From a virus: a DNA stretch of 36,377 nt. Under the pieces are notes generated by a model, which was given only the letters and a program-made list of their open reading frames with translations, was not told the origin of the DNA and did no database searches. Made by a program: the position numbers and the translations under genes. The stretch is from positions 1 through 36,377 of the IMG/VR virus record IMGVR_UViG_3300001920_000013. One strand, given 5' to 3'. Numbering within the stretch: the stretch's first letter is position 1; each line of letters opens with the position of its first letter. Of this stretch, positions 8,148 through 34,160 are shown piece by piece.

Positions 8148-8180
8148 GACATGAACGCGCTGTTCGCAGTAGAAGCCAAG
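8148..8180 (-). repeat. Dispersed 33-base repeat, copy A
   Basis: Reads CTTGGCTTC, then TAC, then TGCGAACAGC and GCGTTCATG on the minus strand. It points toward the gene at 7742-8116; its internal ATG (8152) is 36 bases upstream of, and in frame with, the chosen start. Confidence 0.85.
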
Positions 8181-8275
8181 CGTTATTCCGCTAGTTTTTG
8201 CTTCCTTTTCGAGCGCTCATTCGCTGCACAATCAATCCGTGAAAGCGCGGCTTGCGGGCGATTGTCGATGCGCAA

Positions 8276-8295
8276 GGCCGTGCCGGGGCACGGCC
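8276..8295 (-). terminator. Strong hairpin after the DUF3489 gene
   Basis: GGCCGTGC (8276-8283) and GCACGGCC (8288-8295) form a perfect eight-pair GC-rich stem with a four-base loop, 28 bases downstream of the DUF3489 stop on the minus strand. No T run follows, so it may be a terminator of the GC-rich kind, an RNA-stabilising hairpin, or a protein-binding palindrome. Confidence 0.4.
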
Positions 8296-8323
8296 CTACG
8301 AGGCGCTGCGTTGCGCTGCGACA

Positions 8324-8905
8324 TCACGCGGTCGCTTCGGCGTCTTGGATGCGATAGACGCGAACGCCGCCTTCGGCCTTGTCGGAGGTGATCGTCAGGT
8401 TGAGTTTCTTCTTGAAGGCACCGGCGAAGGTGCCGCGCACGGTGTGGGCCTGCCACTGCGTCGCGTCGCAGATCTGCTGGATCGTGGCGCCCTCGGGGCG
8501 TCGGAGCATGGCGATGACCTGCGCTTGCTTGCTGTTCTCCCGGCTACGCGGTGCATCGCGTGTCGCGGCGACATCCGGCTTCGGTGTCGCGGCCTTGCGC
8601 GCATTCTTGCGTGCGGGCTTGGCGGCGTTGTCTCCGGCAGGTTTGGTCGCCTTGCTGGTCGTGGACGCGTGAGGGCGCGGGCGGCCCAGCGCATCGTAGG
8701 CCTCGACGGTGACGATCCAGTCGCCGCCGTGACCGATGACCAGGCCACGCTTGAATAACGATTCGATCACCTTCTGGCGTGCGCCGCCTTTGATGGTGTC
8801 GGGGAACCAGTCGAGTTTGCCTTGCGGATGCGCGATGGCGCGCGTGAGGATGGCGGTTTGGTTTTCGGTCAAGGTGGGGGGCTTGGCGTTCGTTTCGGTG
8901 TTCAT
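8324..8905 (-). CDS. DUF3489 domain protein
   Basis: A 193-residue protein with a C-terminal DUF3489 domain (residues about 130-187): SKQAQVIAMLRRPEGATIQQ, then WQAHTVRGTFAGAFKKKLNL and a closing VYRI. This looks like a winged helix, so DNA binding is likely. The N-terminal part (about 10-60: LTENQTAILTRAI, then WFPDTIKGGARQKVIESLFKRGL) looks like a second winged helix. A Lys/Ala/Pro-rich linker joins them. AGGAG lies at good distance before ATG 8905. The family is frequent on proteobacterial plasmids and phages; its function is unknown. A dispersed-repeat copy lies just upstream. Confidence 0.85.
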   Translation of the reverse strand: MNTETNAKPPTLTENQTAILTRAIAHPQGKLDWFPDTIKGGARQKVIESLFKRGLVIGHGGDWIVTVEAYDALGRPRPHASTTSKATKPAGDNAAKPARKNARKAATPKPDVAATRDAPRSRENSKQAQVIAMLRRPEGATIQQICDATQWQAHTVRGTFAGAFKKKLNLTITSDKAEGGVRVYRIQDAEATA

Positions 8906-8938
8906 GGGTGCTCCTGAGGTGGGTGTGGTTGGCGCGAT

Positions 8939-8971
8939 GTGATGAACGCGCTGTTCCGCACCGAAGCCAAG
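8939..8971 (-). repeat. Dispersed 33-base repeat, copy B
   Basis: Reads CTTGGCTTC, then GGT, then GCGGAACAGC and GCGTTCATC on the minus strand. The ATG of other copies is ATC here. It points toward the DUF3489 gene, whose start is 33 bases past the repeat end. A more degenerate match, CTTGACTTC followed by GAGCAGCGCG, lies farther upstream at about 9024-9052. Confidence 0.82.
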
Positions 8972-9071
8972 CCGTAACCCCTGCAATCCGTGCGTGTTCA
9001 GCACACAGACGGCCTGTCGCCGCGAAGCGCGCTGCTCGCGCGTGAAGTCAAGTCATTCATCGATCATCGGC

Positions 9072-9611
9072 ATGGGACTTTCGATTCGCGCCTACGCGCG
9101 CCATCGCGGCGTGACGGACACCGCCGTCCACAAAGCGATCCGCGCCGGACGCATCACGCCCGAGGCCGATGGCACGATCGATGCGGTGAGGGCCGATGCG
9201 GAGTGGACGCGCAATTCAGCGCCCGCACGCAACGGCACACAGGCACGCGCGCCGCGTGTTGCGGTGCCGGAGGCGGCTGACGCTGGCCGCGACACCGGCG
9301 CGGCGGCGCTTCCTGCGGGCGGCGCGTCGCTGTTGCAGGCGCGCACCGTCAACGAAGTGGTCAAAGCGCAGACGAACAAAGTGCGACTGGCGCGGCTCAA
9401 GGGCGAGCTGGTCGAACGTTCGCAGGTGGTCGCGCACGTCTTCAAGCTGGCGCGCGATGAGCGCGATGCCTGGCTCAACTGGCCGGCGCGCGTCTCGGCG
9501 CAGATGGCAGCGACGCTCGCGGTTGATCCGCATGCGCTGCACCTGGCGCTGGAGGCGGCGGTGCGCGACCACCTGCGCGAGTTGGGCGAGCTGCGTCCAC
9601 GGATCGATTGA
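9072..9611 (+). CDS. Terminase small subunit-like protein
   Basis: A 179-residue protein that sits directly before the large terminase, where the small subunit is expected. It would recognise phage DNA for packaging. The N-terminal residues about 3-35 form a helix-turn-helix (SIRAYARHRGVTDTAVHKAI, then AGRIT), a feature of such subunits. A variable Ala/Pro-rich middle is followed by a helical C-terminal part (about 95-175: KVRLARLKGELVERSQVVA, then ARDERDAWLNWPARVS) similar to Nu1-like packaging proteins. ATG 9072 starts at the helix-turn-helix; the ribosome-binding site is weak. The gene ends two bases before the large-subunit ATG. Position and domain layout make the assignment likely. Confidence 0.75.
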   Translation: MGLSIRAYARHRGVTDTAVHKAIRAGRITPEADGTIDAVRADAEWTRNSAPARNGTQARAPRVAVPEAADAGRDTGAAALPAGGASLLQARTVNEVVKAQTNKVRLARLKGELVERSQVVAHVFKLARDERDAWLNWPARVSAQMAATLAVDPHALHLALEAAVRDHLRELGELRPRID

Positions 9612-9613
9612 GC

Positions 9614-11575
9614 ATGCTCGATTACGAAGGCGCGGACGCGATCGACCGCGCCTGGCGCGACGGTTTGACGCCCGATCCGCTGGTATCGGTCTCGGAGTGG
9701 TCCGACCAGCACCGGATGCTCTCGAGCAAGGCGTCCGCGGAACCGGGACGCTGGCGCACCGCGCGCACGCCGTACCTGCGCGAGATCATGGATTGCCTCT
9801 CGCCGGCCTCGCCGGTCGAGCGCGTGGTGTTCATGAAAGGCGCGCAGGTCGGCGGCACCGAGTGCGGCAGTTGTTGGATCGGCTACGTGATCCACCACGC
9901 GCCGGGGCCGATGATGGCGGTGTGGCCGACCGTGGAGATGGCCAAACGCAACTCCAAGCAGCGGATCGACCCGCTGATCGAGGAGTCGCCGGTGCTGGCC
10001 GAGCGCATCGCCCCCGCGCGGGCGCGCGACTCGGGCAACACGATCCTCGCCAAGGAGTTCCGCGGCGGCGTGCTGGTGATGACCGGCGCCAACAGCGCAG
10101 TCGGCCTGCGCTCGATGCCGGTGCGGTATCTGTTCCTCGACGAGGTCGACGGCTACCCGCTCGATGTCGAGGGCGAAGGCGATGCGATCTCGCTGGCGGA
10201 GGCGCGCACACGCACCTTCACGCGGCGCAAGATCTTCATCGTCTCGACGCCGACGATCGCGGGCGCCAGCAGCATCGAGCGCGAGTACGAGGCGTCCGAC
10301 CAGCGTCGGTACTTCGTCCCGTGCCCGCACTGCGCGCATGCGCAGTGGTTCCGATTCGAGCAATTGCGTTGGGAGCGCGGCCGACCGGAGACGGCGGCCT
10401 ATGTCTGCGAGTCGTGCGAGCAGCTCATCGCCGAGCACCACAAGACGGCGATGTTGGAGCAGGGCCAGTGGCGAGCGACGGCCACCGGGACGGGCCGCAC
10501 GGCCGGGTTTCACCTGTCGTCGCTGTACAGCCCGGTGGGCTGGCGCAGTTGGCGCGAGATCGCAGCGGCGTGGGAGAGCGCGATCGACAAGACGACGGGT
10601 TCGGCCTCGGCGATCAAGACGTTCAAGAACACGGAACTCGGCGAGACCTGGGTCGAGGAAGGCGATGCGCCGGACTGGCAGACGTTGCTGGAACGGCGCG
10701 AGGACTACCGCATCGGCACGGTGCCGCGTGGCGGGCTGCTGCTGGTGGCCGGCGCCGACGTGCAGAAGGATCGGATCGAAGTCTCGGTGTGGGCGTTCGG
10801 CCGCGGCAAGCGGGCGTGGCTGATCGAGCATCGCGTGCTGATGGGCGATACCGCGCGCGATGCGGTGTGGACCGCGCTCGACGCCATGCGCCGCGAGACG
10901 TGGACGCATGCGGGCGGTGCCCAGGTGCCGCTGGCGCGGCTCGCGATCGACACCGGCTTCGCGACGCAGGAGGTGTACGCCTTCGTGCGCGCGTGCCGCG
11001 ACAGCCGGGTGATGGCGGTCAAGGGCGCCGCGCGCGGTGCGGCGCTGATCGGCACACCGACGGCGGTCGATGTGACCGTCGCCGGCAAGAAACTGCGCCG
11101 CGGCGTGAAGGTGTACACGGTGGTGGTCGGCATCGCCAAACAAGAGCTGTTTCAGCACCTGCGCCTGCAGGCCGATGTCGCCGCCGACGGCATCACGGCG
11201 ATCACGCCCGCCGGTTACATCCACTTGCCGAAGATCGACGCCGAGTTCCTGCAGCAGTTGTGCGCGGAACAGTTGATCACGCGGCGGGACCGGAACGGGT
11301 ATGCGGTGCGCGAGTGGCAAAAGCTGCGCGAACGCAACGAGGCGCTCGACTGTTACGTCTATGCGCGCGCGGCGGCAGCAGCGGCCGGATTGGACCGGTT
11401 CGAGCACCGCCATTGGCGCGAGTTGGAACGTTCGCTCGGCATCGCCGAGACGACGGACCCGCCGCCCATCGCGAACACCGAACTGCCTGATCAGGCCACC
11501 GGAGACGGTGGCCTGACCGTTTCTGCGCGTCCGAATCGTCGGCGCGTGATCAAGAGCCGTTGGCTCCATCGCTAA
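9614..11575 (+). CDS. Phage terminase large subunit, GpA family
   Basis: A 653-residue packaging motor of the lambda GpA family; it pumps DNA into the prohead using ATP and cuts it with a nuclease domain. The ATPase has a Walker A-like KGAQVGGTE around residues 75-83 and Walker B YLFLDEVDG with the acidic pair at 176-177, followed by STPT (coupling motif). Two CxxC pairs (237/240 and 265/268) form the zinc site often seen in this family. The C-terminal nuclease region has DVQKDRIEVSVWAFG, LAIDTGFATQEVYAF and the late RNEALDCYVYARAA. An earlier TTG at 9608 overlaps the previous stop, but ATG 9614 is the better start. Length is typical. Confidence 0.96.
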   Translation: MLDYEGADAIDRAWRDGLTPDPLVSVSEWSDQHRMLSSKASAEPGRWRTARTPYLREIMDCLSPASPVERVVFMKGAQVGGTECGSCWIGYVIHHAPGPMMAVWPTVEMAKRNSKQRIDPLIEESPVLAERIAPARARDSGNTILAKEFRGGVLVMTGANSAVGLRSMPVRYLFLDEVDGYPLDVEGEGDAISLAEARTRTFTRRKIFIVSTPTIAGASSIEREYEASDQRRYFVPCPHCAHAQWFRFEQLRWERGRPETAAYVCESCEQLIAEHHKTAMLEQGQWRATATGTGRTAGFHLSSLYSPVGWRSWREIAAAWESAIDKTTGSASAIKTFKNTELGETWVEEGDAPDWQTLLERREDYRIGTVPRGGLLLVAGADVQKDRIEVSVWAFGRGKRAWLIEHRVLMGDTARDAVWTALDAMRRETWTHAGGAQVPLARLAIDTGFATQEVYAFVRACRDSRVMAVKGAARGAALIGTPTAVDVTVAGKKLRRGVKVYTVVVGIAKQELFQHLRLQADVAADGITAITPAGYIHLPKIDAEFLQQLCAEQLITRRDRNGYAVREWQKLRERNEALDCYVYARAAAAAAGLDRFEHRHWRELERSLGIAETTDPPPIANTELPDQATGDGGLTVSARPNRRRVIKSRWLHR

Positions 11576-11596
11576 TTCCCAACGAGTCACTACCGC

Positions 11597-11818
11597 ATGG
11601 CCTACACCCACGAACAGCTCGCCGCACTGGAGCGCGCACTCGCGACCGGCGAGCAACGCGTCACCTTCGGCGATCGCACCGTCGAGTACCGTTCAGTCGA
11701 GGAACTGATCGCCGCGATCGACGTCGTGCGGCGCGCGCTGGAGGCGCAGGCGATCGCGGCCGGGACCGCGAAGCGTCGTCCGCGCCGCGTCGTCGTGAAC
11801 ACCGACAAGGCGACGTGA
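11597..11818 (+). CDS. gpW-like head-tail joining protein
   Basis: A 73-residue protein similar in size, position and pattern to lambda gpW, which closes the portal channel after packaging. TLike gpW it starts with a short helix (EQLAALERALATGE), a beta hairpin (RVTFGDRTVEYRS), a second helix (VEELIAAIDVVRRALEAQ) and a basic tail. It lies between the large terminase and portal, the same place as gpW in lambda. The upstream ribosome-binding site is weak. Confidence 0.85.
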   Translation: MAYTHEQLAALERALATGEQRVTFGDRTVEYRSVEELIAAIDVVRRALEAQAIAAGTAKRRPRRVVVNTDKAT

Positions 11819-11822
11819 TCGT

Positions 11823-13307
11823 ATGAGCTGGTGGTCTCGGCTGCGCACTCGACTGTTTGGCGCGTCGCCGACGTATGACGGCGTCGGCGGCGGACGCCGC
11901 GCCCGCTTCTGGCAGGTCGGTAACCCCGGCGCGGTCGCGGCACTGGTGTTTGCGCAGGACGAGTTGCGCGCCAAGAGCCGCGATCTCGTCCGTCGCAATG
12001 CCTGGGCCGCCGCCGGGGTCGAGGCCTTCGTGGCAAACGCGATCGGCACCGGCATCAAGCCGCAGTCGATGCTGGGCGACACCGACCAACGCGAAACCAT
12101 CCAAGCGCTGTGGCGCGATTGGTGCGAGGAGGCGGACACCGCGGGCCTGACCGACTTCTACGGCCTGCAAGCGCTGGCCTGCCGGGCGATGCTCGAAGGC
12201 GGCGAGTGTCTGGTGCGGCTGCGCTACCGGCGTCCGGAGGATCGCCTCAGCGTCGGTCTGCAGTTGCAGTTGCTCGAACCCGAGCACCTGCCGGCGACGT
12301 TGAACCGCGAGTTGCCGAACGGCAACGCGATCCGCGCGGGCATCGAGTTCAACGCGCTCGGGCAGCGCGTCGCCTACCACTTGTACAAGAGCCATCCCGG
12401 CGACGGGATGCTCGCGCCGATGTCCGCGCATGGCGGCCTGGACACGGTGCGTGTGCCGGCCGATGAGGTACTGCACTTGTTCCGGCCGTTGCGACCCGGC
12501 CAGATCCGCGGCGAGCCGTGGCTGGCGCGGGCGCTGGTCAAGTTGCACGAACTCGATCAATACGACGATGCCGAGTTGGTGCGCAAGAAGACCGCGGCGA
12601 TGTTCGCAGGCTTCATCACCCGTGGCGCGCCCGACCATCCGCTGCTCGGCGAAGGTGAGGCCGATGCGCAAGGTGTGGCGTCGGCGAGTCTGGAACCCGG
12701 CACGATGCAGTTTCTGGAGCCGGGTGAGGACGTGAAGTTCTCCCAGCCGGCCGATGTGGGGTCGAGCTATGCCGAGTTCATGCGCCAGCAGTTCCGCGCC
12801 GTCGCGGCTGCGATGGGCATCACCTACGAGATGCTCACCGGCGACCTGACGCAGGTGAACTACTCGTCGATTCGTGCCGGGTTACTGGAGTTTCGGCGCC
12901 GCTGCGAGGCGATCCAGCATGGCGTGATCGTCCATCAACTGTGCCGCCCGCTGTGGCGGGCGTGGATGACGCAGGCCGTACTCGAAGGCGCGCTGGTGCT
13001 CCCCGGTTACGCGCGCGGCGGCGTTGCACGCCGTCGCGCCTACACGGCCGTGAAGTGGGTCGCGCAAGGCTGGCAGTGGGTCGATCCGAAGAAGGAATTC
13101 GACGCGATGATCGCGGCGATCCGCGGCGGCTTGCTCTCACGCTCGGAGGCGATTTCCAGTTTCGGCTACGACGCCGAAGACATCGATCGCGAAATCGCCG
13201 CCGACAACGCCCGTGCCGATGCGCTCGGACTGGTCTTCGATTCCGATCCCAGGCATGACCGCCCGACGACCACGTCGGCCACTGAACCTTCTTCGCAGAC
13301 GTCTTGA
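11823..13307 (+). CDS. Phage portal protein, lambda gpB family
   Basis: A 494-residue portal protein that forms the ring at one capsid vertex, through which DNA enters and leaves. Family features are clear: RDLVRRNAWAAAGVEAFVANAIGTGI near residues 55-80 (shown as a landmark only by its ends, RNAWAA and IGTGI), the tract DFYGLQALACRAMLEGGE, the conserved VRVPADEVLHLFRPLRPGQIRG region near 205-225, and YAEFMRQQFRAVAAAMGITY near 318-337 followed by LTGDLTQVNYSS. It begins with ATG four bases after the previous stop. Its stop overlaps the start of the protease gene. Length and order match lambda-type packaging modules. Confidence 0.95.
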   Translation: MSWWSRLRTRLFGASPTYDGVGGGRRARFWQVGNPGAVAALVFAQDELRAKSRDLVRRNAWAAAGVEAFVANAIGTGIKPQSMLGDTDQRETIQALWRDWCEEADTAGLTDFYGLQALACRAMLEGGECLVRLRYRRPEDRLSVGLQLQLLEPEHLPATLNRELPNGNAIRAGIEFNALGQRVAYHLYKSHPGDGMLAPMSAHGGLDTVRVPADEVLHLFRPLRPGQIRGEPWLARALVKLHELDQYDDAELVRKKTAAMFAGFITRGAPDHPLLGEGEADAQGVASASLEPGTMQFLEPGEDVKFSQPADVGSSYAEFMRQQFRAVAAAMGITYEMLTGDLTQVNYSSIRAGLLEFRRRCEAIQHGVIVHQLCRPLWRAWMTQAVLEGALVLPGYARGGVARRRAYTAVKWVAQGWQWVDPKKEFDAMIAAIRGGLLSRSEAISSFGYDAEDIDREIAADNARADALGLVFDSDPRHDRPTTTSATEPSSQTS

Positions 13308-14599
13308 TGACCGCACTTGTCCACCTGGCGTCCCGTCTCTACGGGACGCCACTGCTGATCGCGCGCGCCAAACTCGACACGATTCTTGCCGTGCTCGGTC
13401 CGCGCATCGGTCTGGCGCATACGGACCTCGCGTTACCGATGATCGCGCCATCTACGCAAGCACCGACGCCATCGATGCCGGGCATCGCGATCATTCCGAT
13501 CCACGGCACGCTGGTGCGCCGCGCACTAGGGCTCGAAGCCGCTTCGGGCCTCACGTCCTACGCGCGCATCGCGGCCGATCTCGATGCGGCGCTTGCGGCG
13601 CCAGATGTCACGGGCATCCTGCTCGACATCGACTCGCCCGGCGGCGAAGCCGGCGGCGTGTTCGAGTTGGCCGAACGGATCCGCGCAACGAGTGCGATCA
13701 AGCCGATCTGGGCGCATGCCGGCGATAGCGCGTTCTCAGCCGGATATGCCATTGCCTGCGCGGCGCAGCGCGTGACGCTGGCGCAGACCGGCGGCGTCGG
13801 CTCGATCGGCGTGATCGCGCTGCACATCGACCAATCGGTGCGCAACGCGCAGAACGGCTTGAGCGTGACCGCGCTGTATGCCGGCGCGCACAAGAACGAT
13901 GCCACCCCGCACGCGCCGCTGACGCCGCAGGCCACCGACGCGCTGCAATCGGAAATCGATCGCCTCTACGCCCTGTTCGCCGCTCACGTCGCGCAGATGC
14001 GCGGCCTGGATGCCAACGCCGTGCGCGCGACCGAGGCGGCGCTGTTCTTCGGCGATGACGCGGTCACCGCGGGCCTGGCCGATGGCGTCGCGTCCTTCGA
14101 CGCGACGCTCGCCGACTTCGCCACCGCCCTGCGCGGCCGCGGCCGTTTGCCCGGTTCCTCCACACCGCTCGCGTTGCCGATGCGGCTTGCCCTTCCCCCA
14201 CCCCCGGAGTCCTCCATGACTGTGCCCATCGATTCGGCGCCCGCGCCGCCCACGCCCCCTGTTGTGCCCGCACCCACCCCTGCGCCGGCCGTTGCGCCCG
14301 CCCCGCCTGCACCGGCGACGTCCGCCGTGTCACCTCCCGCGGATCCCCACGCCGATGCGGTCGCGGTCGCCGAACTGTGTCTGCTCGCCGGCTGTCCCGA
14401 GCGCACCACCGAGTTTCTTGCGGCACGCCTGTCCGCGTCGCACGTCCGCCAGGTGCTGCTGCAGGCCCGTGCCGATCAGGTCGAGATCGCCTCGCACCAC
14501 CTCGCCGACGCAGCGCCTGCCGCCGCCGCAACCACCGCCAATCCCGTCGCCGACGCGGTGCGCAAGCGCATCGGCACGACCCCAGCCGCAGGAGCCTGA
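13307..14599 (+). CDS. S49-family prohead protease with C-terminal scaffold region
   Basis: A 430-residue protein that cuts scaffold and capsid-associated proteins during head maturation. The protease domain (about residues 45-270) has the SppA/ClpP-like fold: LLDIDSPGGEAGG with SPGG at 110-113, the nucleophile Ser144 in AFSAGYAIA, GGVGSIGVI near 164-172, and the conserved AGAHK lysine. From about residue 290 it turns into a long Pro/Ala-rich scaffold-like tail. ATG 13307 overlaps the portal stop. An internal ATG with its own ribosome-binding site starts a separate scaffold product, as with lambda C and Nu3. Confidence 0.94.
   Translation: MTALVHLASRLYGTPLLIARAKLDTILAVLGPRIGLAHTDLALPMIAPSTQAPTPSMPGIAIIPIHGTLVRRALGLEAASGLTSYARIAADLDAALAAPDVTGILLDIDSPGGEAGGVFELAERIRATSAIKPIWAHAGDSAFSAGYAIACAAQRVTLAQTGGVGSIGVIALHIDQSVRNAQNGLSVTALYAGAHKNDATPHAPLTPQATDALQSEIDRLYALFAAHVAQMRGLDANAVRATEAALFFGDDAVTAGLADGVASFDATLADFATALRGRGRLPGSSTPLALPMRLALPPPPESSMTVPIDSAPAPPTPPVVPAPTPAPAVAPAPPAPATSAVSPPADPHADAVAVAELCLLAGCPERTTEFLAARLSASHVRQVLLQARADQVEIASHHLADAAPAAAATTANPVADAVRKRIGTTPAAGA
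14216..14599 (+). CDS. Nested scaffold protein (internal start in protease gene)
   Basis: An in-frame ATG at 14216, residue 304 of the protease, is preceded by GGAG at 14206-14209 with six-base spacing. This would give a 127-residue product: a Pro/Ala-rich N-terminal half and a helical C-terminal half (AVAELCLLAGCPERTTEFLA, then ASHVRQVLLQARADQ). Such products act as the inner scaffold in lambda-type phages. The start and the site are seen directly; use of the start is inferred by analogy with lambda Nu3. Confidence 0.65.
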   Translation: MTVPIDSAPAPPTPPVVPAPTPAPAVAPAPPAPATSAVSPPADPHADAVAVAELCLLAGCPERTTEFLAARLSASHVRQVLLQARADQVEIASHHLADAAPAAAATTANPVADAVRKRIGTTPAAGA

Positions 14600-14602
14600 G
14601 TG

Positions 14603-16001: not shown

Positions 16002-16009
16002 GGCCCACC

Positions 16010-17269: not shown

Positions 17270-17280
17270 TGTCGGCGTGC

Positions 17281-17577
17281 TCAGCGCTGTGCCGGCGGCC
17301 ACAACCGCGCAGCGTGAACCAGTGCCAGCACCCAGATGATCTGCGCGGTCTCGTCGACCTCATACACGAGTCGGTAGTTTTCGTGCGGCACCAGCTCGCG
17401 CGTCCCCGGTACGAGGCCGGCACGACCCATCAGCGGAAACTGCACCAACGCCGCAGCGGCCTCACCGAACCGTTCATCCAGTGCCAGCGCCGCCATCGGC
17501 GCGTCGCGGCACACGGTCTCGAAGATGGTCAGACGGTCTTGGCGGGCGGCGTCGCTCCAGCGGACCTTCACGCTCAA
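17281..17577 (-). CDS. ParE/RelE-family toxin
   Basis: A 98-residue toxin on the minus strand, paired with the antitoxin just upstream. It has the RelE/ParE pattern: KVRWSDAARQDRLTIFETV at the start, a helix pair with ALDERFGEAAAALVQFP, then GLVPGTRELVPHENYRLVYEVD and IIWVLALVHAARLWP. The C-terminal HAARLWP is typical of the family and close to the first toxin's HAAQQWP. The GTG/ATG start overlaps the antitoxin stop (ATGA at 17574-17577). It sits tail to tail with the plus-strand tail gene ending at 17269, inside the tail operon, so it is an inserted accessory unit. Confidence 0.85.
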   Translation of the reverse strand: MSVKVRWSDAARQDRLTIFETVCRDAPMAALALDERFGEAAAALVQFPLMGRAGLVPGTRELVPHENYRLVYEVDETAQIIWVLALVHAARLWPPAQR

Positions 17578-17858
17578 GCGCCGGCCTGGCGCCGCACGGC
17601 ATCGCGGCGGGCCGCGAACTCAGCCTCGACCGTCTCGTCGGAGGCATGCCGTCCCTCGGCGATTTGCGCACGGGCAAGCGCGACCTTGTCCTGCACGAAC
17701 GCCTCATACGCCTCGCGCTGCTCCCGGCTGCGCACGTACTCCCGCATCAGCTCACGCACGACCTGCGAGGCCGGGCGATGTTCGGCCTCGGTCGCGGCGA
17801 TGAAGGCATCCCGCAATTCCGCCTCCAATTTCAATGTGAACACGGTGGCTTTGGTCAT
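17574..17858 (-). CDS. CopG/ribbon-helix-helix antitoxin
   Basis: A 94-residue antitoxin. The N-terminal TVFTLKLEAELRDAFIAATE followed by RPASQVVRELMREYV is the ribbon-helix-helix pattern used for dimerisation and operator binding. The C-terminal part is a charged helix (YEAFVQDKVALARAQIAEG) that should bind the toxin. ATG 17858 is chosen; a GTG at 17894 would place the start inside the promoter. The gap between the predicted -10 box and ATG is short, so the mRNA may be almost leaderless. Antitoxin and toxin overlap by four bases. Confidence 0.85.
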   Translation of the reverse strand: MTKATVFTLKLEAELRDAFIAATEAEHRPASQVVRELMREYVRSREQREAYEAFVQDKVALARAQIAEGRHASDETVEAEFAARRDAVRRQAGA

Positions 17859-17875
17859 GGCCGAGGCGCCAAAAG

Positions 17876-17904
17876 ATACTAACGTCGTATGCACAATATC
17901 ATAA
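17876..17904 (-). promoter_or_regulatory. Candidate minus-strand promoter of the CopG/ParE-like pair
   Basis: Read on the minus strand: TTATGA (17899-17904), 17 bases, then TAGTAT (17876-17881). The stretch is much richer in A and T than its surroundings and contains the inverted halves ATAC and GTAT, a possible antitoxin operator. It overlaps the leader of the plus-strand tail gene at 17915. Confidence 0.55.
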
Positions 17905-17914
17905 CGAGGCGGCC

Positions 17915-26706: not shown

Positions 26707-26708
26707 GC

Positions 26709-27506: not shown

Positions 27507-27565
27507 TCACGCCCTCTCCCTCCCGTTCGGCACGCGTCGCGTGCCGGCCTTGCCGTGCCTTCGCC

Positions 27566-27793
27566 ATGTGGATTTACGCCATCGTCCTGATTCTCGCCAT
27601 CGCGCTCAGCGTCGCGATGCGCCCCAAACCGCAGTCGCAGAAACCGCCGTCGCTCGCCGAGTTCTCGGTGCCCACCGCCGAGGAAGGGCGCGAGGTGCTG
27701 GTGATCTTCGGCGAGGTCTGGGTGGACGATCCGAACGTCCTCGCCTATGGCGATCTGCGCACGACGCCGATCAAGGCCAAGGGTGGAAAGTGA
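27566..27793 (+). CDS. Small membrane-anchored tail-module protein
   Basis: A 75-residue protein with one N-terminal membrane segment (WIYAIVLILAIALSVAM, residues 2-18), then a Pro/Lys/Gln stretch and a conserved soluble end: VPTAEEGREVLVIFGEVWVD and PNVLAYGDLRTTPIKA. The PTAEEG and YGDLRTTPIKA blocks are common in small proteins beside phage tail tip genes; their function is not known to me. ATG 27566 is chosen since it begins at the membrane segment; a TTG at 27503 would add 21 residues. No clear ribosome-binding site is seen. Confidence 0.75.
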   Translation: MWIYAIVLILAIALSVAMRPKPQSQKPPSLAEFSVPTAEEGREVLVIFGEVWVDDPNVLAYGDLRTTPIKAKGGK

Positions 27794-28053
27794 GCACGCC
27801 GACTGATGCGTTGGACGGCCTGCGCGTTCACCTGCGGCATGTCCGGGCGATCGATCCGACGGGCGGGCCGCTGTGTGCGCCGGGCATTCGCGCGTGGTGT
27901 CGCCAGCACGGGATCGATGTGCGCGTTCTTTGCGACGAAGGCATCGAGATTGCCGCGCACCCGGCGCTGCACGACGACCCGTTCGTCGCGCGCGCGATCG
28001 CGATTGCGCGCGCCGAAGCGGCGTCACCCGTCGAGACCCGCGATGCGTCGTGA
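27790..28053 (+). CDS. Conserved small tail-module protein
   Basis: An 87-residue protein with the pattern RVHLRHVRAIDPTGGPLCAP and GIRAWCRQHGIDVRVLCDEG, which I recall from small proteins between the BR0599 and tip protein genes of many phages. A helix near the C terminus (DPFVARAIAIARAEA) follows. The start is GTG 27790, overlapping the upstream stop as GTGA. No catalytic motif is seen. It probably supports tail tip assembly, by position only. Confidence 0.68.
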   Translation: MSTPTDALDGLRVHLRHVRAIDPTGGPLCAPGIRAWCRQHGIDVRVLCDEGIEIAAHPALHDDPFVARAIAIARAEAASPVETRDAS

Positions 28054-28324
28054 GCGTCTCTACCGCGTCTGGATCGTGTGCGCCTGCATCGCCTCGATCG
28101 GATCCGGCCTTGTGTTGTGGGCTGCGGGCGAACGCGCGTTCGGTGCGCTCGGCATCGCGAGCGGGCTCGTTCACGCACTGTGGGGATGGGATGTGCCGGC
28201 ACTCGTGCGCGGTCGTCTGCGGCGAAAGCCGATCGTGATTCCGCGGTTGCGGCCCTTTGTCGTGTCGCCGCCGCGCCCGTCGTTCGTGCAGCGCCTGCGC
28301 GCCCGGGTGCGCCACCGTGGGTAA
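28043..28324 (+). CDS. Small membrane protein with two predicted helices
   Basis: A 93-residue protein with two hydrophobic segments, VWIVCACIASIGSGLVLWAA (about 9-28) and FGALGIASGLVHALWGWDV (about 33-51), and a basic C-terminal tail (RLRRKPIVIPRLRPF onward). The layout, two membrane helices with a charged tail in under 100 residues, would fit a holin, and no other holin candidate is seen. The position inside the tail module is unusual for that. It overlaps both neighbours (11 bases upstream, 8 downstream). No ribosome-binding site is evident. Confidence 0.6.
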   Translation: MRRERLYRVWIVCACIASIGSGLVLWAAGERAFGALGIASGLVHALWGWDVPALVRGRLRRKPIVIPRLRPFVVSPPRPSFVQRLRARVRHRG

Positions 28325-30803
28325 GTCCAGCAAGCCGACGATCGGCTATCGCCACTTCATGTACCTGTACATGGGCGAGTCGATCGGCCCGAACGACTAC
28401 CTCGCAGGCGTCAAAGTCGGCGGTCAGACCGTGTTCGAAGGCGAACGCGCGGGCAGCGGGACGCTCGCGATCGATCTACCGCAATTGTTCGGTGGCGATA
28501 AGAAGGAAGGGGGCCTGGTCGGCACCCTGCAGATTCGGATGGGCGAAGCGACACAGTTGCCCGATCCGTATTTGCAGCAGCAAGTGCCAGGCCCTTGGCC
28601 GGCCGCGCGCGGGCTCTGCACCACGCTGTACCGCGGGATGGTCGGGGCGATGAACCCCTACCTGAAGCTCTGGGCCAAGCGCTGGGGGCGCTTCGTGCAG
28701 GGCTGGTCGACGCCGGTGTGGCAACCGGCGCTCGCACGCATCGGCCGCGGCATGAACGCAGCACACATCCACTACCAGTGCCTCACCGATACCGTGTGGG
28801 GCTGCGGTCTGGATCCCGCGTTGATCGATGGCGAGAGTTTTCTGCGCGCGGCCGAACAACTCCACGACGAGCAGTTCGGCTTATGCCTCGGTTGGCGGCG
28901 TGGCGATTCGATCGGAAATTTCCTGCAGACGGTCAACACCCATGTCGGCGGCCTATGGGCGTTCGATCCGATGCGCGGCCAGTTCGTGTATCGGCTGTTC
29001 CGGCCGGACTACGACGTCCGTGCGCTGCCGCTGCTCGACGAAACCAGCGTCCTCGCGCTGGAGAGTTGGCAGACACCGCTGCTCGACGGATCCGTGAACG
29101 AAATCACCGTGATCGGCCGCGACTGCGTGACCAACCTCGAGATCGCCGCGACGTTTCAGAACATGGCGAACGTGCAGGCGCAGGGACGCGTGATCGCCGA
29201 TCGCCGCACGCTGCCGGGGCTGTGGAACCGCAGCCTGTGCGAGCGCGTCGCCGCGCGCGAAACCGCCGCCGCGAGCAGCCTCCTGCAGCGGATCAAACTC
29301 ACGGTTGATCGTCGCTGGTGGGGCATCAAGCGCGGCGACGTGCTCGCGCTGTCCTGGCGCCGCAAGGGCGTGCAGCGCATGCCGGTGCGGGTGCTGGAGG
29401 TGGACGAGGGCACGCGCACGGACGGCGCACTCGCGCTGGTGCTGGTGCAGGACATCGACGGCATGGCGGCGACCACGTATCTGCGGCCGGTGATCGGGCC
29501 ATGGACGCCACCCGACACGCGTCCTCTACCGCTGCCCTCGCAGCGCCTGGTCGAGGCGACCTACCGCGATCTCGCCGGCCGGCTACGCCCCGCCGATCTC
29601 GCGCAGATTGAAGACGATGCCGGCTTCGTGGTTGCGCTCGGCGCGCGCCCGAACGGGCCGGCCTACGGCTATGCGCTCACCACGCGCACAGCGGGCGGCA
29701 CGTTCGAGGAGGTCGCCAGCGGCGACTTCTCGGCCACCGCGACCCTCGCGGGCGCGCTGAGCCCAACCGACACCGTCGCCACGCTCGCCGAACGGCGCGA
29801 TCTGGACCTCGTCGTCGTCGGCAGCGAAGCGCTGATCGACGAGGAACTGGTGCGGATCGAGGCGATCAACGCGGTCGCGGGCACGCTGACGATCGCACGC
29901 GGGTGCGTCGACACCGTGCCGGCGCCGCATGCTGCGGGGGCGCGCCTGTGGTGCAGCGACACCTACGTCGGCGCCGATCCGACCGAGTATCTCGCGGGGG
30001 ACACCGTCGAGGCGAAACTGCTCACGCGCACGCCACAAGGCACCCTCGATCCCGCCCTTGCGCCGATCACCCAGGTCCGGCTCGATGCGCGCCATGCGCG
30101 GCCGTATCCACCGGGCCGGCTGCGAATCAATGGCGCGGCGTGGCCGGCGACCAGTTTCGCGCGCCTGACGACCGCGTGGGCACACCGCGATCGCGTCCTG
30201 CAAGGCGATCGCCTCATCGAACACGAGGCTGGAAGTATCGGTCCCGAACCCGGCACGACGACGACCGTGCGCGTGCTCCACGCGCTCAGCGGTGCGCTGC
30301 TGCACGAGACGACCGGCATCACCGGCACGAGCCACAGCGTCGATGTGCTGCTCGCCAGCGATGCGCCGCTGCGCATCGAAGTGAACAGCCGACGCGGCGT
30401 GCTCGCCAGCCGGCAGACGCACGTTCGCACGCTGCAGTGTGAGTGCGGCGAGAAACTCGCGAACGCCGACTTCGATACGCAGGCCGCCTGGTCGCTCGGT
30501 GCTGGTTGGTCGATCGCCCCAGGGGCCGCGGTGAAGGGCGCAGGCGTCGCCTCCGATCTCGAACAAGTCTTCGCGTTTGTGGACGGTGGCGTCTATCGGA
30601 TCGAGTGGGTACTCGCCCAGGTCACTGCGGGCACGGCACGCGTGCGACTGGCGGGCGTGACGCCTGTGGAGGGTGCGGCGCGCAACGCAAACGGCACCTT
30701 CATCGAGACCCTCACCGCCAACGCGCACACCGCGCTGCGTATCGCCACTGATGCCGCGTTTGCCGGCCGGATAGAGCGCGTCAGCCTGCGCCGATTGGCG
30801 TAG
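28317..30803 (+). CDS. Tail tip/baseplate hub protein (lambda J-like)
   Basis: An 828-residue protein that forms the end of the tail and contacts the host. The N-terminal part (KPTIGYRHFMYLYMGESIGP, then YLAGVKVGGQTVFEG) and the middle (HIHYQCLTDTVWGCGLDPAL, DEQFGLCLGWRRGDSIGNFL, then VGGLWAFDPMRGQFVYRLFR) match phage tail hub proteins of the Phage-tail_3 type. The C-terminal third is beta-rich and may hold the receptor-binding part, including a late NADFDTQAAWSLGAGWSIAP that resembles a carbohydrate-binding or jelly-roll segment. The start is GTG 28317, eight bases before the upstream stop. It is the last structural gene. Confidence 0.85.
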   Translation: MGKSSKPTIGYRHFMYLYMGESIGPNDYLAGVKVGGQTVFEGERAGSGTLAIDLPQLFGGDKKEGGLVGTLQIRMGEATQLPDPYLQQQVPGPWPAARGLCTTLYRGMVGAMNPYLKLWAKRWGRFVQGWSTPVWQPALARIGRGMNAAHIHYQCLTDTVWGCGLDPALIDGESFLRAAEQLHDEQFGLCLGWRRGDSIGNFLQTVNTHVGGLWAFDPMRGQFVYRLFRPDYDVRALPLLDETSVLALESWQTPLLDGSVNEITVIGRDCVTNLEIAATFQNMANVQAQGRVIADRRTLPGLWNRSLCERVAARETAAASSLLQRIKLTVDRRWWGIKRGDVLALSWRRKGVQRMPVRVLEVDEGTRTDGALALVLVQDIDGMAATTYLRPVIGPWTPPDTRPLPLPSQRLVEATYRDLAGRLRPADLAQIEDDAGFVVALGARPNGPAYGYALTTRTAGGTFEEVASGDFSATATLAGALSPTDTVATLAERRDLDLVVVGSEALIDEELVRIEAINAVAGTLTIARGCVDTVPAPHAAGARLWCSDTYVGADPTEYLAGDTVEAKLLTRTPQGTLDPALAPITQVRLDARHARPYPPGRLRINGAAWPATSFARLTTAWAHRDRVLQGDRLIEHEAGSIGPEPGTTTTVRVLHALSGALLHETTGITGTSHSVDVLLASDAPLRIEVNSRRGVLASRQTHVRTLQCECGEKLANADFDTQAAWSLGAGWSIAPGAAVKGAGVASDLEQVFAFVDGGVYRIEWVLAQVTAGTARVRLAGVTPVEGAARNANGTFIETLTANAHTALRIATDAAFAGRIERVSLRRLA

Positions 30804-30833
30804 TCCACGCGCGAAGTCAACACCTTGTTGAAG

Positions 30834-30871
30834 CCTGTCCGACAGGTGTCTGGATGTCGCAGCGCGACATC
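30834..30871 (+). terminator. Tandem hairpins after the structural operon
   Basis: Two inverted repeats lie 30-70 bases after the tip protein stop. The first is CCTGTC and GACAGG around one base (30834-30846), with an overlapping outer pair ACACCT/AGGTGT (30820-30849). The second is GATGTCGC (30853-30860), loop AGC, GCGACATC (30864-30871). No T run follows. They could end transcription of the late operon, act as operator sites for the small-gene block, or both. Confidence 0.45.
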
Positions 30872-30879
30872 GAACTTCG

Positions 30880-30912
30880 CTTGGCTTCACCGCCGAACAG
30901 CGCGTTCATGGC
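30880..30912 (+). repeat. Dispersed 33-base repeat, copy C
   Basis: Reads CTTGGCTTC, then ACC, then GCCGAACAGC and GCGTTCATG. It starts nine bases after the hairpin at 30853-30871 and points to the gene at 30950. Its own ATG (30908) opens a five-codon frame that stops before the gene's AGGAG. Confidence 0.88.
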
Positions 30913-30949
30913 CTCGTCGCATTGACGACACCGACGCCCAGGAGCCGAT

Positions 30950-31309
30950 ATGCCCACCATGACCCTCACCATCGAACGCACACCACGCACGCTCACCTTC
31001 CGCGACGCCACCATCGAGGTCGAGGAACTCGGCGTGCGTCTGCCCTTCGCACGCAAGCCGGCCGACTTGCGCGAGATGTGCGCCAGCGGGAACGAATTGA
31101 TTTACATCACCGAGACGGTCGAGATGACGCCTGCCGAGTTCGATGTCTTCGCGAACAGCTTCTACGCGCCGCGCGCGTGGCTGAAAGGCAAGGGCGGATC
31201 GATCTGCGGCGGCCACTTGTGCGTCGAAGTGCATGCACCGGGCCGGCCCTACCTCTACATCGATCCCTCGGGCGGCGACGACGCCCGCTATGTCGCGCGC
31301 CTCGGATGA
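30950..31309 (+). CDS. Conserved accessory protein of unknown function
   Basis: A 119-residue soluble protein. It starts with strands (TMTLTIERTPRTLTFRDATI, then VEELGVRLPFARKPADLREM) and holds two cysteines near the end (ICGGHLCVEVHAPGR), where the PYLYIDPSGGDDARY segment follows. I recall similar small proteins on proteobacterial plasmids and phages, but no name. AGGAG lies six bases before ATG 30950. A dispersed-repeat copy lies 37 bases upstream of the start. It is the first gene of the accessory block after the tail operon. Confidence 0.68.
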   Translation: MPTMTLTIERTPRTLTFRDATIEVEELGVRLPFARKPADLREMCASGNELIYITETVEMTPAEFDVFANSFYAPRAWLKGKGGSICGGHLCVEVHAPGRPYLYIDPSGGDDARYVARLG

Positions 31310-31340
31310 GCCACATCCGAGATTGAACTCAGGCCATGCG

Positions 31341-31373
31341 CTTGGCATCGGTCGCGCACAGCACCTTGATGAC
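31341..31373 (+). repeat. Dispersed 33-base repeat, diverged copy H
   Basis: Reads CTTGGCATC, then GGT, then CGCGCACAGC and ACCTTGATG. It has the same length and the same fixed ends as the other copies but about eight changes. It points toward the DUF6900 gene; its ATG (31369) is in frame with and 33 bases before the chosen start. Confidence 0.6.
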
Positions 31374-31401
31374 TCTCACGAACCCTGTCCCGACAATCAC
31401 C

Positions 31402-31599
31402 ATGACCCACATCCACACCACGCTCACCCGCATCGCCCGCGCCACGCTCGGCATCGAGACCCTGGAGACCCGCGGTTCCGACCGACTGGACTTCCACGAG
31501 GTCTCGGTCGCCAGCCTGCGCGCGGCGCTGGAAGCGGCTTATCACGCCGGCGCCGAACAAGCGCGCAAGGCGGCAACTCGCAAGGCGTCTGCACGCTGA
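31402..31599 (+). CDS. DUF6900 family protein
   Basis: A 65-residue protein that matches the DUF6900 pattern: LTRIARATLGIETLETRGSDR followed by LDFHEVSVASLRAALEAAYHAG. The landmark segments are IARATLGIETLETR and LDFHEVSV. Function unknown; the family is found on plasmids and phages. ATG 31402 is at the family start, and no good ribosome-binding site lies before it. An in-frame ATG at 31369, inside the diverged repeat copy, would add 11 residues. The stop is 19 bases before the next repeat copy. Confidence 0.78.
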   Translation: MTHIHTTLTRIARATLGIETLETRGSDRLDFHEVSVASLRAALEAAYHAGAEQARKAATRKASAR

Positions 31600-31618
31600 A
31601 TCTTCGAATCGCCGCGCG

Positions 31619-31651
31619 CTTGGCTTCGCATGCGAACAGCGCGTACATGCA
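31619..31651 (+). repeat. Dispersed 33-base repeat, copy D
   Basis: Reads CTTGGCTTC, then GCA, then TGCGAACAGC and GCGTACATG. The TTC to TAC change near the end is shared with copy G. It points to the gene at 31678, whose start is 31 bases after the repeat ATG and in another frame. Confidence 0.87.
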
Positions 31652-31677
31652 CTCCCCGACACGGACAGCGACCCTGC

Positions 31678-31998
31678 ATGAAACACAGAGCACCCCACAA
31701 ACCCAAACCGGTCAAGGAGTTCTTCCTCGCCTCCCTGCTCGTCCGCGTCCCCGGTCGACGAGGACGCCACGCCTGGCGCCGAGAAGTCTTGCGCGCACGC
31801 ACGCCTCGCGCCCTGATGCGCCAGATCGACGGCCGCAAGCACATCGCTTACGCCAGCAATGGCGTCGATGTGATTCGCATCGAATTGATCGACACCGGCA
31901 GCACGCTGCTCGCACCGATCGCGGATGGTGCCGAGGTCGAGCCGCTGGGCGATCTGCTCGCGCGGATCGCCGCGAATCCCACCGGTTTGGTTTGGTGA
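31678..31998 (+). CDS. Small accessory protein of unknown function
   Basis: A 106-residue protein with a very basic N-terminal half (KHRAPHKPKPVKEFFLASLL, then VRVPGRRGRHAWRREVL) and a C-terminal half that looks like strands followed by a helix (HIAYASNGVDVIRIELIDTG, then LGDLLARIAANPTGLVW). The basic part suggests nucleic-acid binding. I do not recognise the family. No clear ribosome-binding site precedes ATG 31678. It is followed 14 bases later by the next gene, probably on the same transcript. Confidence 0.6.
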   Translation: MKHRAPHKPKPVKEFFLASLLVRVPGRRGRHAWRREVLRARTPRALMRQIDGRKHIAYASNGVDVIRIELIDTGSTLLAPIADGAEVEPLGDLLARIAANPTGLVW

Positions 31999-32012
31999 AA
32001 CAGGAGGCCGCC

Positions 32013-32381
32013 ATGAGTACGACAACGCTTCGGAACGATCAAGACCCCTATCGGCGTATCGCGAAGAATCGGTTCGGCATCGACGTCGATACGGTCGTCG
32101 CCACTGGCGACGCCGCGGCAATCGCCGATCTACAACGCCTGCTCGACGCGCTCGCCGAGGCCTACGAGATAGGTTTCGAGGATGGCGAACGCTACGTCAC
32201 CAGCAACGATGTGCCGCTGCACGAAAGCATGGCGTCGCTCGACACCGCCTTCCTGCTCGCAATGCATCGCGGCGACACGGACCTGCGCGCGCACGTCCTG
32301 GCCGAAATCACCCGCCGCGCCGCCTCCGGCACCGACGCGATTGTCGGGTTCGCGCCACCACTGTCCGAGCAGGACACCTGA
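32013..32381 (+). CDS. Small acidic accessory protein
   Basis: A 122-residue, acidic, mostly helical protein: DPYRRIAKNRFGIDVDTVVA at the start, AIADLQRLLDALAEAYEIGF in the middle and AHVLAEITRRAASGTDAIVG near the end. GGAGG lies about five bases before ATG 32013. No known domain, membrane segment or catalytic motif is visible. It is downstream of the basic protein at 31678, so a pair of basic and acidic partners is possible, but this is speculation. Confidence 0.62.
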   Translation: MSTTTLRNDQDPYRRIAKNRFGIDVDTVVATGDAAAIADLQRLLDALAEAYEIGFEDGERYVTSNDVPLHESMASLDTAFLLAMHRGDTDLRAHVLAEITRRAASGTDAIVGFAPPLSEQDT

Positions 32382-32444
32382 TCCACAGGGCGTGTGCGAA
32401 TGCTGTACGACGCTTGTCCATCGATTGGAACGACCGAAGGGTCG

Positions 32445-32477
32445 CTTGGCTTCACGGCCGAACAGCGCGTTCATGGA
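32445..32477 (+). repeat. Dispersed 33-base repeat, copy E
   Basis: Reads CTTGGCTTC, then ACG, then GCCGAACAGC and GCGTTCATG. A small hairpin CGACC/GGTCG (32431-32444) ends at the base before it. Its ATG (32473) is 33 bases upstream of, and in frame with, the start at 32506. Confidence 0.88.
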
Positions 32478-32505
32478 TGCAAACCACCACACAAGGTATT
32501 TCCCC

Positions 32506-32787
32506 ATGAGCAGTCAATTCGACGAACACGCCTTCAACACACGCCGCGCCATCACGCAAGGTGAGGACGCGCTGACCAGCATCCGGCAAGCACTGGAGCA
32601 CGCCTTGCGCGAGATCGAACGCTGCCAGGCGCGCTATCAGGCGGCCCCGCTCCTCGAGAAGCCGCGTGTCCTGAACCATGCGCTGTCCACGGCCTGTACG
32701 TGGGCGATCGTCAACGCACGGATCGGCTTGGCGGCAGATGCACAGGCGGAGCTGCACGCCATTGCGCAGAACGCGCCGCCGGCATGA
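32506..32787 (+). CDS. Small helical accessory protein, paralogue 1
   Basis: A 93-residue helical protein. The core ALEHALREIERCQARYQAA, then LNHALSTACTWAIVNARIGL and AQAELHAIAQ can be aligned with the next gene's product with one gap (shared ALxxxxxxIE, ARY, HA, and a final IA). AAGG lies eight bases before ATG 32506. An upstream in-frame ATG in the repeat would add 11 residues. It overlaps a tiny ORF by ATGA. Function unknown. Confidence 0.62.
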   Translation: MSSQFDEHAFNTRRAITQGEDALTSIRQALEHALREIERCQARYQAAPLLEKPRVLNHALSTACTWAIVNARIGLAADAQAELHAIAQNAPPA

Positions 32788-32900
32788 TGCCAGATCATCG
32801 TTGTGCTGCGGTTGGGACACTGGCCGCAGCCTTGTCGGCCGTTCGCGCCAGTCCATTGCGCCTGTGCGAGCGACGGATCCGACCACGGACGGAGCGTTGA
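32784..32900 (+). CDS. Possible 38-residue coupled ORF
   Basis: Starts with ATG overlapping the previous stop (ATGA) and reads MMPDHRCAAVGTLAAALSAV followed by a basic tail with LRLCERRIRP. It has no ribosome-binding site and no recognised family. The overlap is the only support, so it could be chance. Confidence 0.25.
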   Translation: MMPDHRCAAVGTLAAALSAVRASPLRLCERRIRPRTER

Positions 32901-32931
32901 ACGCACGCTAAGAACAAGTTGCGCTGAAGGA

Positions 32932-32964
32932 CTTGTCTTCCGTTGCGAACAGCGCGTTCATGTG
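32932..32964 (+). repeat. Dispersed 33-base repeat, copy F
   Basis: Reads CTTGTCTTC, then CGT, then TGCGAACAGC and GCGTTCATG. The single change near the start (GGC to GTC) lets it pair with ACAAGT at 32914-32919. Its ATG (32960) is 27 bases before and in frame with the start at 32987. Confidence 0.86.
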
Positions 32965-32986
32965 CCCACGCCCACACAGACATCCC

Positions 32987-33259
32987 ATGATGCAAGACGA
33001 ACACGCCACGCCCACCACTGACCGGGACGAAGGTCATCGCCAACTGGAGCGCATGATCGAGGCGCTGACGGCGACACGATCGTTGATCGAACAACAGATC
33101 GCCCGTTATGCCGACGCGAAGTCGCCATCGGAACGCGGCGACATCCTCCACGCCGCCATCATCGCTGTCGAAGATCGATTACGCCCGCGATGCCGACTCG
33201 ACGACCTCGCGAAGATCCGCGACGCGCAGCACACCATCGCCGGCCGGCGCGGGATTTGA
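32987..33259 (+). CDS. Small helical accessory protein, paralogue 2
   Basis: A 90-residue helical protein related to the product of 32506-32787: RMIEALTATRSLIEQQIARY, then AKSPSERGDILHAAIIAVED and a final DAQHTIAGRRGI. The ALxxxxxxIE, ARY and HA positions align with the neighbour with a single gap. Two adjacent ATG codons are possible starts, and the repeat ATG at 32960 is a third in the same frame. No ribosome-binding site is visible. Function unknown; a tandem duplication of gene plus repeat is the simplest origin. Confidence 0.6.
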   Translation: MMQDEHATPTTDRDEGHRQLERMIEALTATRSLIEQQIARYADAKSPSERGDILHAAIIAVEDRLRPRCRLDDLAKIRDAQHTIAGRRGI

Positions 33260-33410
33260 TCGAGACGCCCACACCGCCCGCCCGCCATCCGGACGGGCAT
33301 CGACGTCACTCACATTGGAGAACAACCACACCAACGTAGGCGCATGACGCGCAGGAAGCACGGTCGCGTCATCGCCAGTACCACTCCCCGGCAAACACCG
33401 GAAACGCGGA

Positions 33411-33438
33411 CGGCCGAGGTGCGTCAACACCCCGGCCG
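33411..33438 (+). promoter_or_regulatory. GC-rich hairpin before a leader peptide
   Basis: CGGCCG-A-GGTG and CACC-C-CGGCCG can form a ten-pair stem with one mismatch around the six-base loop CGTCAA. It lies about 30 bases before the 29-residue ORF at 33472. No T run follows. The layout of hairpin, ribosome-binding site, short ORF and coupled gene suggests attenuation or translational control. The rest of the gap 33260-33471 shows no gene. Confidence 0.45.
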
Positions 33439-33471
33439 CCCTAACCACCACCGTTCACGAGAGGAACGACA

Positions 33472-33561
33472 ATGGCTGCAATTACTTTATCAGGCCCGAA
33501 TCGGGTCGAACATCGTTCGTCGCGCTTGGCGACTTCTGGCACTTCAGGAGCGCGGACATGA
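33472..33561 (+). CDS. 29-residue leader ORF coupled to the DUF3077-like gene
   Basis: A short ORF, MAAITLSGPNRVEHRSSRLA and so on to a stop at 33559-33561. It has GAGAGG at good distance upstream, a better site than most genes here, and its stop overlaps the next ATG (ATGA at 33558-33561). It may be a leader peptide that controls translation of the following gene, or a truncated gene end. The family is not recognised. Confidence 0.45.
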   Translation: MAAITLSGPNRVEHRSSRLATSGTSGART

Positions 33562-33800
33562 GCGAAACCACACGCGAAACCCCGTTCCGCGACATTCCTG
33601 CGGAGCAGCGCCCTTTGCTGATGGTCGCCAGCGGCGTTGGAAGCGCCACCGCCCTGCGGGAAGCTGCGGATCTGGAGGACGCCGTGCGCCGCCTGCTGGT
33701 GATCGGCACAGAGACCGGGATCGACGGCGGCTTGGCCTACCTGTGCGAGTTCGCACTGGAAATTGCAGGCGCGCTTCGGAGATCAACTGACGACGACTGA
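33558..33800 (+). CDS. Small protein resembling DUF3077
   Basis: An 80-residue protein. RPLLMVASGVGSATALREAA, DLEDAVRRLLVIGTE and YLCEFALEIAGALRRS resemble the DUF3077 layout, where a PLFxVxxGV start is followed by an ALExAS-type helix and a second helix. CAGGAG lies about nine bases before ATG 33558, and the start also overlaps the upstream ORF stop. DUF3077 function is unknown. The match is from memory and moderate. Confidence 0.58.
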   Translation: MSETTRETPFRDIPAEQRPLLMVASGVGSATALREAADLEDAVRRLLVIGTETGIDGGLAYLCEFALEIAGALRRSTDDD

Positions 33801-33947
33801 CCACTCTGTGACCGACGACTGAGTCACCGCGTCGATTGAATCGTTGATCTCTGGATGCTCGTCCTCGCATTGCGTTGCGGTGCGATACAGCCGTCAGTCG
33901 CCGCGTTGACACTGGCGACTGGTTTGATGCCCTTCAGAGGTCCTGTG

Positions 33948-34160
33948 ATGCCTTCCAACGATTGTGATCCTGCACGCATGACGCCTGCCCAGCGCCGCAC
34001 GGAAGCGGCCGGGCTGTTGGCGCTTGGTCTTCACCGTTTGCGCGCTCGCGATGTCGATGCGACCGCTGTACTTCCTGTCTCTCCGGCTGACCGTGGACTT
34101 GGCTTCCCGGCCGAACCACGCGTACATGCCAACCCCGCTCACCGGAGTCCAGAGGCATGA
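33948..34160 (+). CDS. Small protein of the serine-recombinase cassette
   Basis: A 70-residue protein. The core ARMTPAQRRTEAAGLLALGL followed by HRLRAR matches the small proteins that commonly come before DUF2924 and serine recombinase genes in proteobacteria. AGAGG lies before ATG 33948. A dispersed-repeat copy lies inside its C-terminal coding part (frame LGFPAEPRVH). The stop overlaps the DUF2924 start by ATGA. It has no known function; the conserved linkage suggests a helper role for the recombinase. Confidence 0.7.
   Translation: MPSNDCDPARMTPAQRRTEAAGLLALGLHRLRARDVDATAVLPVSPADRGLGFPAEPRVHANPAHRSPEA
34098..34130 (+). repeat. Dispersed 33-base repeat, copy G
   Basis: Reads CTTGGCTTC, then CCG, then GCCGAACCAC and GCGTACATG. 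It lies within the end of the small gene at 33948-34160 and ends 26 bases before the DUF2924 start at 34157, so this copy overlaps coding sequence. Confidence 0.82.

Follow-up and report, generated by a model that had tools for sequence, protein, structure and literature searches.

A dispersed 31-base promoter-like tag upstream of unrelated small genes in phages and prophages of proteobacteria

Gene content and copies of the tag in the window

The window analysed here, the whole 36,377-base linear IMG/VR virus record IMGVR_UViG_3300001920_000013, encodes a DUF5906 primase-helicase, a DUF6362 protein, two ParB-type DNA methylases, terminase, portal, tail genes and a DUF2924-serine recombinase pair (terminase, portal and tail were named from the protein sequences and by comparison with phage AcaML1). 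A preliminary description of the sequence reported a 33-base repeat, with seven clear copies and one diverged copy, each in the orientation of the gene after it, before accessory genes with nothing else in common. The relevant features are:

3581..4000 (+), DUF6362 protein, predicted fold like sigma region 4 and phage 21 Q; weaker candidate regulator
7742..8116 (-), 124-aa protein without Pfam match, of a family seen in 86 loci with the element upstream
8150..8180 (-), element copy, perfect; 33 nt before gene 7742-8116
8324..8905 (-), DUF3489 protein with predicted winged-helix domains; candidate regulator
8941..8971 (-), element copy, 2 mismatches; 35 nt before the DUF3489 gene
9022..9052 (-), decayed element copy between the DUF3489 element and the terminase gene; possible remnant of a lost cassette
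30880..30910 (+), element copy, perfect; 39 nt before gene 30950-31309
30950..31309 (+), 119-aa protein of unknown function headed by an element
31341..31371 (+), diverged element copy, 5 mismatches; 30 nt before the DUF6900 gene
31402..31599 (+), DUF6900 protein headed by the diverged element
31619..31649 (+), element copy, 1 mismatch; 28 nt before gene 31678-31998
31678..31998 (+), 106-aa protein of unknown function headed by an element; first gene of a two-gene unit
32013..32381 (+), second gene of that unit, 14-nt gap, no element of its own
32445..32475 (+), element copy, perfect; 30 nt before gene 32506-32787
32506..32787 (+), 93-aa protein of unknown function headed by an element
32932..32962 (+), element copy, 1 mismatch; 24 nt before gene 32987-33259
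32987..33259 (+), 90-aa protein of unknown function headed by an element
34098..34128 (+), element copy, 3 mismatches; 28 nt before the DUF2924-recombinase operon
34157..34627 (+), DUF2924 protein headed by an element
34624..35967 (+), serine recombinase, directly after DUF2924 in the same unit

The repeat is real and far beyond chance: all seven clear copies and the diverged copy were found at the places and in the orientations first reported. A profile made from 619 copies in other genomes scored the seven copies at 49.6, 49.2, 49.0, 45.4, 42.9, 35.1 and 24.8, and the diverged copy at 31341 at 9.3, whereas the best score in 60 random windows of the same dinucleotide make-up was -5.1. The same profile revealed the ninth, decayed copy (minus 9022-9052, score 9.7), which had been missed. 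Some details of the preliminary description were corrected: the element is 31-32 bases long rather than 33; the free part is 5-6 bases, not 3; and the last base of the apparent 'ATG' is not conserved (G 43%, A 28%, C 27%), so it is not a start codon, which rules out a short upstream ORF beginning at the repeat. The distance from the element end to the start codon in the window is 24-39 nt.

Distribution, consensus and position of the element

The 26 specified bases match exactly in 77 stretches of IMG/VR (the number expected by chance was roughly estimated to be below 0.001). A looser pattern was found in IMG/VR and in the GTDB genomes, among the matches examined mostly in Burkholderiales, Rhodocyclales, Lysobacterales, Thiobacillus, Pseudomonas and Halotalea, with single cases in Nitrospira and Elioraea. 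Hundreds of copies occur in other phages and prophages, mainly of beta- and gamma-proteobacteria, a spread over hundreds of phages not seen in the preliminary description: the 19 element-bearing genomes examined carry 1-8 copies, and phage records 2-7. In an even draw of Pseudomonadota, 4 of 398 genomes have the element, one of them being the genome used to define the group. A search of plasmid genomes had been named beforehand as a check, and BLAST of one 31-mer against plasmids gave only weak hits at chance level; against named phages only AcaML1 stood out, which has the element in the same methylase-terminase gap.

Over 622 unique copies the consensus is G-CTTGGCTTC-N6-GAACAGCGCGTTCAT, about 46 bits. 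These copies were fetched by the pattern, and the count was consequently repeated on copies found only through the DUF3489 protein, and so free of search bias, with the same blocks as a result (51.9 bits over 32 columns). The comparison with flanking bases, also proposed in advance, showed nothing further upstream to be conserved except a short A-rich stretch.

A scatter of the copies at random relative to gene starts was the outcome that had been set to count against the preliminary description, and it was not observed: with a simple gene caller of our own that knows nothing of the element, 84% of copies have a same-strand gene start 15-60 nt downstream (median 34 nt), against 2.9% of random positions. 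The downstream genes form 32 sequence clusters, the largest being DUF3489 (165) and a DUF6900-type family (117). Relatedness among loci inflates such counts, and figures are given for unique copies or by gene family where possible. Of 80 DUF3489 loci found by protein, 73 have the element at the same place as in the window; in the 7 without it, another gene's stop codon lies shortly upstream of the start (within about 40 nt in six, about 75 nt in the other). The element also heads the DUF2924-recombinase operon in other prophages, which had not been recognised before.

Evidence bearing on a promoter function

If TTGGCT is taken as -35 to -30, the last conserved T is -7 and +1 falls on the sixth base after the 31-mer. 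That base is a purine after a pyrimidine in 86% of copies, compared to 3% and 5% for the neighbouring steps, and the step is found in most of the 32 gene clusters, although several clusters mostly have CC there, and in the window it is kept in 5 of 8 copies only. The geometry is that of a sigma-70 promoter (-35 and -10 about 17 bp apart, start 6-7 nt after the -10 at a pyrimidine-purine step), no transcription start having been mapped. The element is used once per inferred transcription unit: when the gap to the previous element-headed gene is under 65 nt, 135 of 144 genes have no element, while at 65-300 nt, 307 of 332 have one; the physical room needed explains part of the first figure but not the second. 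Units that are first in line show no other conserved sequence above background upstream of the element, and no clear excess of sigma-70 promoters.

The element does not have the sequence of an ordinary promoter. The -10 hexamer GTTCAT is not close to TATAAT and lacks the A at -11 that sigma-70 needs (T at -11 is nearly invariant), and the conserved stretch from -21 to -13 has no counterpart in sigma-70 promoters. The sigma-54 signature (GG at -24, GC at -12) is absent, as the GG at motif positions 4-5 is followed 10 bases later by GA; and sigma-32, which CTTG and CAT resemble, was rejected because the spacing is 18, not 13-14. A phage-encoded sigma factor was not found: Sigma70_r2 is absent from 37 records of element phages, in a search whose positive control was detected in 10 of 14 genomes. 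A single-subunit T7-like RNA polymerase was likewise found in 0 of 37 records, but here the control was detected nowhere, so this search speaks neither for nor against such a polymerase.

The dispersed promoter, used once per transcription unit, is the best reading, and we hold it with reasonable confidence. What the sequence itself shows are the two blocks separated by 6 weakly conserved bases, the pyrimidine-purine step 6 bases after the last conserved T, the gene start about 34 bases after the element, the lack of other conserved sequence upstream of first-in-line units and the 3' arm described in the next section; from these we infer that the first block is the -35 region (-36 to -27), that the second spans -21 to -7, that transcription starts at the purine, that a leader of about 29 nt carries the Shine-Dalgarno site, and that the 3' arm pairs with the next element in RNA. 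All of this rests on sequence, and start sites, activity, timing and the recogniser are untested. As 46 bits is also more than one protein would need to find a site, host RNA polymerase probably uses the element only with a further factor, or with a non-sigma-70 factor; no recogniser has been identified. The interpretation first offered was supported in part: of its three options, the shared promoter (TTGGCT, 17 bases, GTTCAT) is the best supported, the 5' leader is not supported as an RNA with a conserved fold, and the recombination boundary is better read as a consequence than as the function.

The distance to the start codon is tight (33-35 nt in 371 of the 613 unique genes), which a promoter alone does not require and which, together with the location 5' of the Shine-Dalgarno site, would fit a leader RNA signal controlling translation, as proposed for the SAS of cluster K mycobacteriophages. 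This is very unlikely: the outer pair of GAAC/GTTC in the right block holds in 76% of copies and departures are not compensated; there is no Rfam match in the window or in alphaproteobacterial DUF3489 loci; genes inside operons do not have the element; and the pyrimidine-purine step and two-block spacing would be unexplained.

Alternatively, the element could be a DNA site for a phage regulator (operator or stoperator type) over or next to a weak promoter, the high information content, more than a promoter usually needs, coming from the regulator, perhaps DUF3489. This protein is found in 48 of 51 element phages (of the other three, one holds a cut DUF3489 gene and two lack that genome region), and the right block holds GAAC-N5-GTTC, a partial palindrome. 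We consider this reading unlikely, as the element is asymmetric and fixed in orientation, the palindrome is broken in many copies, and DUF3489 also occurs in alphaproteobacteria, mostly without the element and with a nearly identical recognition helix.

It is also improbable, though possible, that the promoters are served by DUF6362, binding the block between -35 and -10 as lambdoid Q proteins do. The DUF6362 model matches phage 21 Q (Z 8.4 over 108 residues) and sigma region 4, and the protein is found in 41 of 51 element phages. However, the Foldseek E-values are above 0.1 and a Z of 8 is middling; DUF6362 was not found in AcaML1 or in a second element phage (G025) whose methylase region is present and carries elements; and known Q proteins serve one promoter per phage. 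A resemblance to Q21 in a protein missing from some element phages leaves a Q-dependent late promoter undecided.

Cassette junctions and related systems

The first block of the element can also pair with the end of the upstream cassette, a detail absent from the preliminary description. About a third of copies have GAAGCCAAG, the complement of CTTGGCTTC, starting 18 or 14 bases upstream; 52 of 615 match perfectly, against about 0.2 expected from shuffles. When the gene upstream points the same way and ends close by, about half of its 3' ends carry GAAGCCAAG, 5 or 9 bases before the CTTGGCTTC of the next element. This 9-bp arm depends on the upstream neighbour: it is present in 154 of 316 copies with a close co-directional gene and in 8 of 128 with an opposite one (Fisher p 7e-20), and within one downstream family in 29 of 31 against 1 of 65; it therefore belongs to the end of the upstream cassette. 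Two loop lengths fit an RNA hairpin better than a protein dimer site. The arms would pair in the upstream transcript and end or protect it, the -35 block doubling as half of a terminator-like hairpin across the cassette junction; there is no T run after the right arm, so termination is an inference.

Recombination between copies does seem to happen. In pairs of related loci, 198 of 268 cassette indel junctions lie at an element, 300 of 317 junctions with 20 or more shared bases are at an element, and the spacer in the shorter form comes from the upstream copy in 33 cases and from the downstream copy in 47. Linkage of the spacer to the upstream or the downstream gene was equal, so it does not tell where cassettes break. 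That the element is chiefly a recombination boundary is nevertheless very doubtful: any gain or loss of an element-plus-gene unit would leave much the same junctions; a recombination patch needs no fixed distance to a start codon, no orientation rule and no pyrimidine-purine step; and no recombinase specific to the site is known.

The closest systems described are ESAS and SAS of cluster K mycobacteriophages (PMC3203893, PMC11373665): short repeats, several per genome, of fixed orientation before starts of unrelated non-structural genes in larger intergenic gaps, ESAS now being read as holding a repeated, SigA-like promoter. The element works like an ESAS but is not one: it has no 13-bp GGGATAGGAGCCC 3-7 nt before the start codon, lying instead about 34 nt from it; no paired imperfect 17-bp inverted repeats; and no SigA-like -10; it is spread over phages of several proteobacterial orders and has the junction hairpin. 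Cluster O mycobacteriophages carry dispersed identical 17-bp repeats, with deletions explained by recombination between copies (PMC4351075), but those are palindromic and not tied to one distance from a start. T4 early promoters are many near-identical strong promoters, one before each small accessory gene or short operon, but have sigma-70 hexamers, which GTTCAT does not fit. Morons of lambdoid phages are accessory genes with their own promoter and terminator inserted between structural genes, but do not share one promoter sequence, nor a hairpin formed jointly with the next cassette. No paper naming GAACAGCGCGTTCATG, DUF3489 with phage, or DUF6362 was found in the literature searched, which did not include most subscription papers, and a promoter of this type was not described there.

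A more far-reaching reading, which we propose only tentatively, is that a non-sigma-70 promoter class, shared by an under-sampled group of proteobacterial temperate phages and read by host RNA polymerase with a phage-encoded recogniser (DUF3489 being the first candidate), is used as a standard part: every cassette begins with the same -35 block and many end with its complement, so any two cassettes placed side by side can form a hairpin at their junction.

The element gives a sequence handle on the accessory genes of a large phage group: one 31-base pattern marks starts of dozens of unknown small genes and of the integrase operon, and corrects start annotation (AcaML1 gp30 is annotated to start upstream of the tag). 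It points to an unidentified way of directing RNA polymerase, and shows a simple way in which gene cassettes can stay interchangeable: a shared start block and a matching end arm.

Leader of alphaproteobacterial DUF3489 genes and start of AcaML1 gp30

A different conserved leader was found upstream of the DUF3489 genes of alphaproteobacteria (loci L376, L378, L382, L389, L390, L394, L396, L402 and L403): a terminator-like hairpin, then GGGCTYGGGGTGGTRGNAGS, and then a short stem whose arms change together between genomes; a search of this leader against Rfam gave no match. In phage AcaML1 (locus L085), the annotated start of gp30 (5989-6351) lies upstream of the element, the true start being probably about 34 nt after it.

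Other features of the window

9022-9052, a decayed ninth element copy, 50 nt upstream of the DUF3489 element
7165-7726 and 17281-17816, two gene pairs
3581-4000, DUF6362

The decayed copy was possibly left by a lost cassette. The two gene pairs, which are not headed by the element, read like RelB/RelE-type toxin-antitoxin pairs from their sequences. DUF6362, a family without assigned function, is predicted to fold like sigma region 4 and the phage 21 antiterminator Q, and may be the late regulator of these phages.
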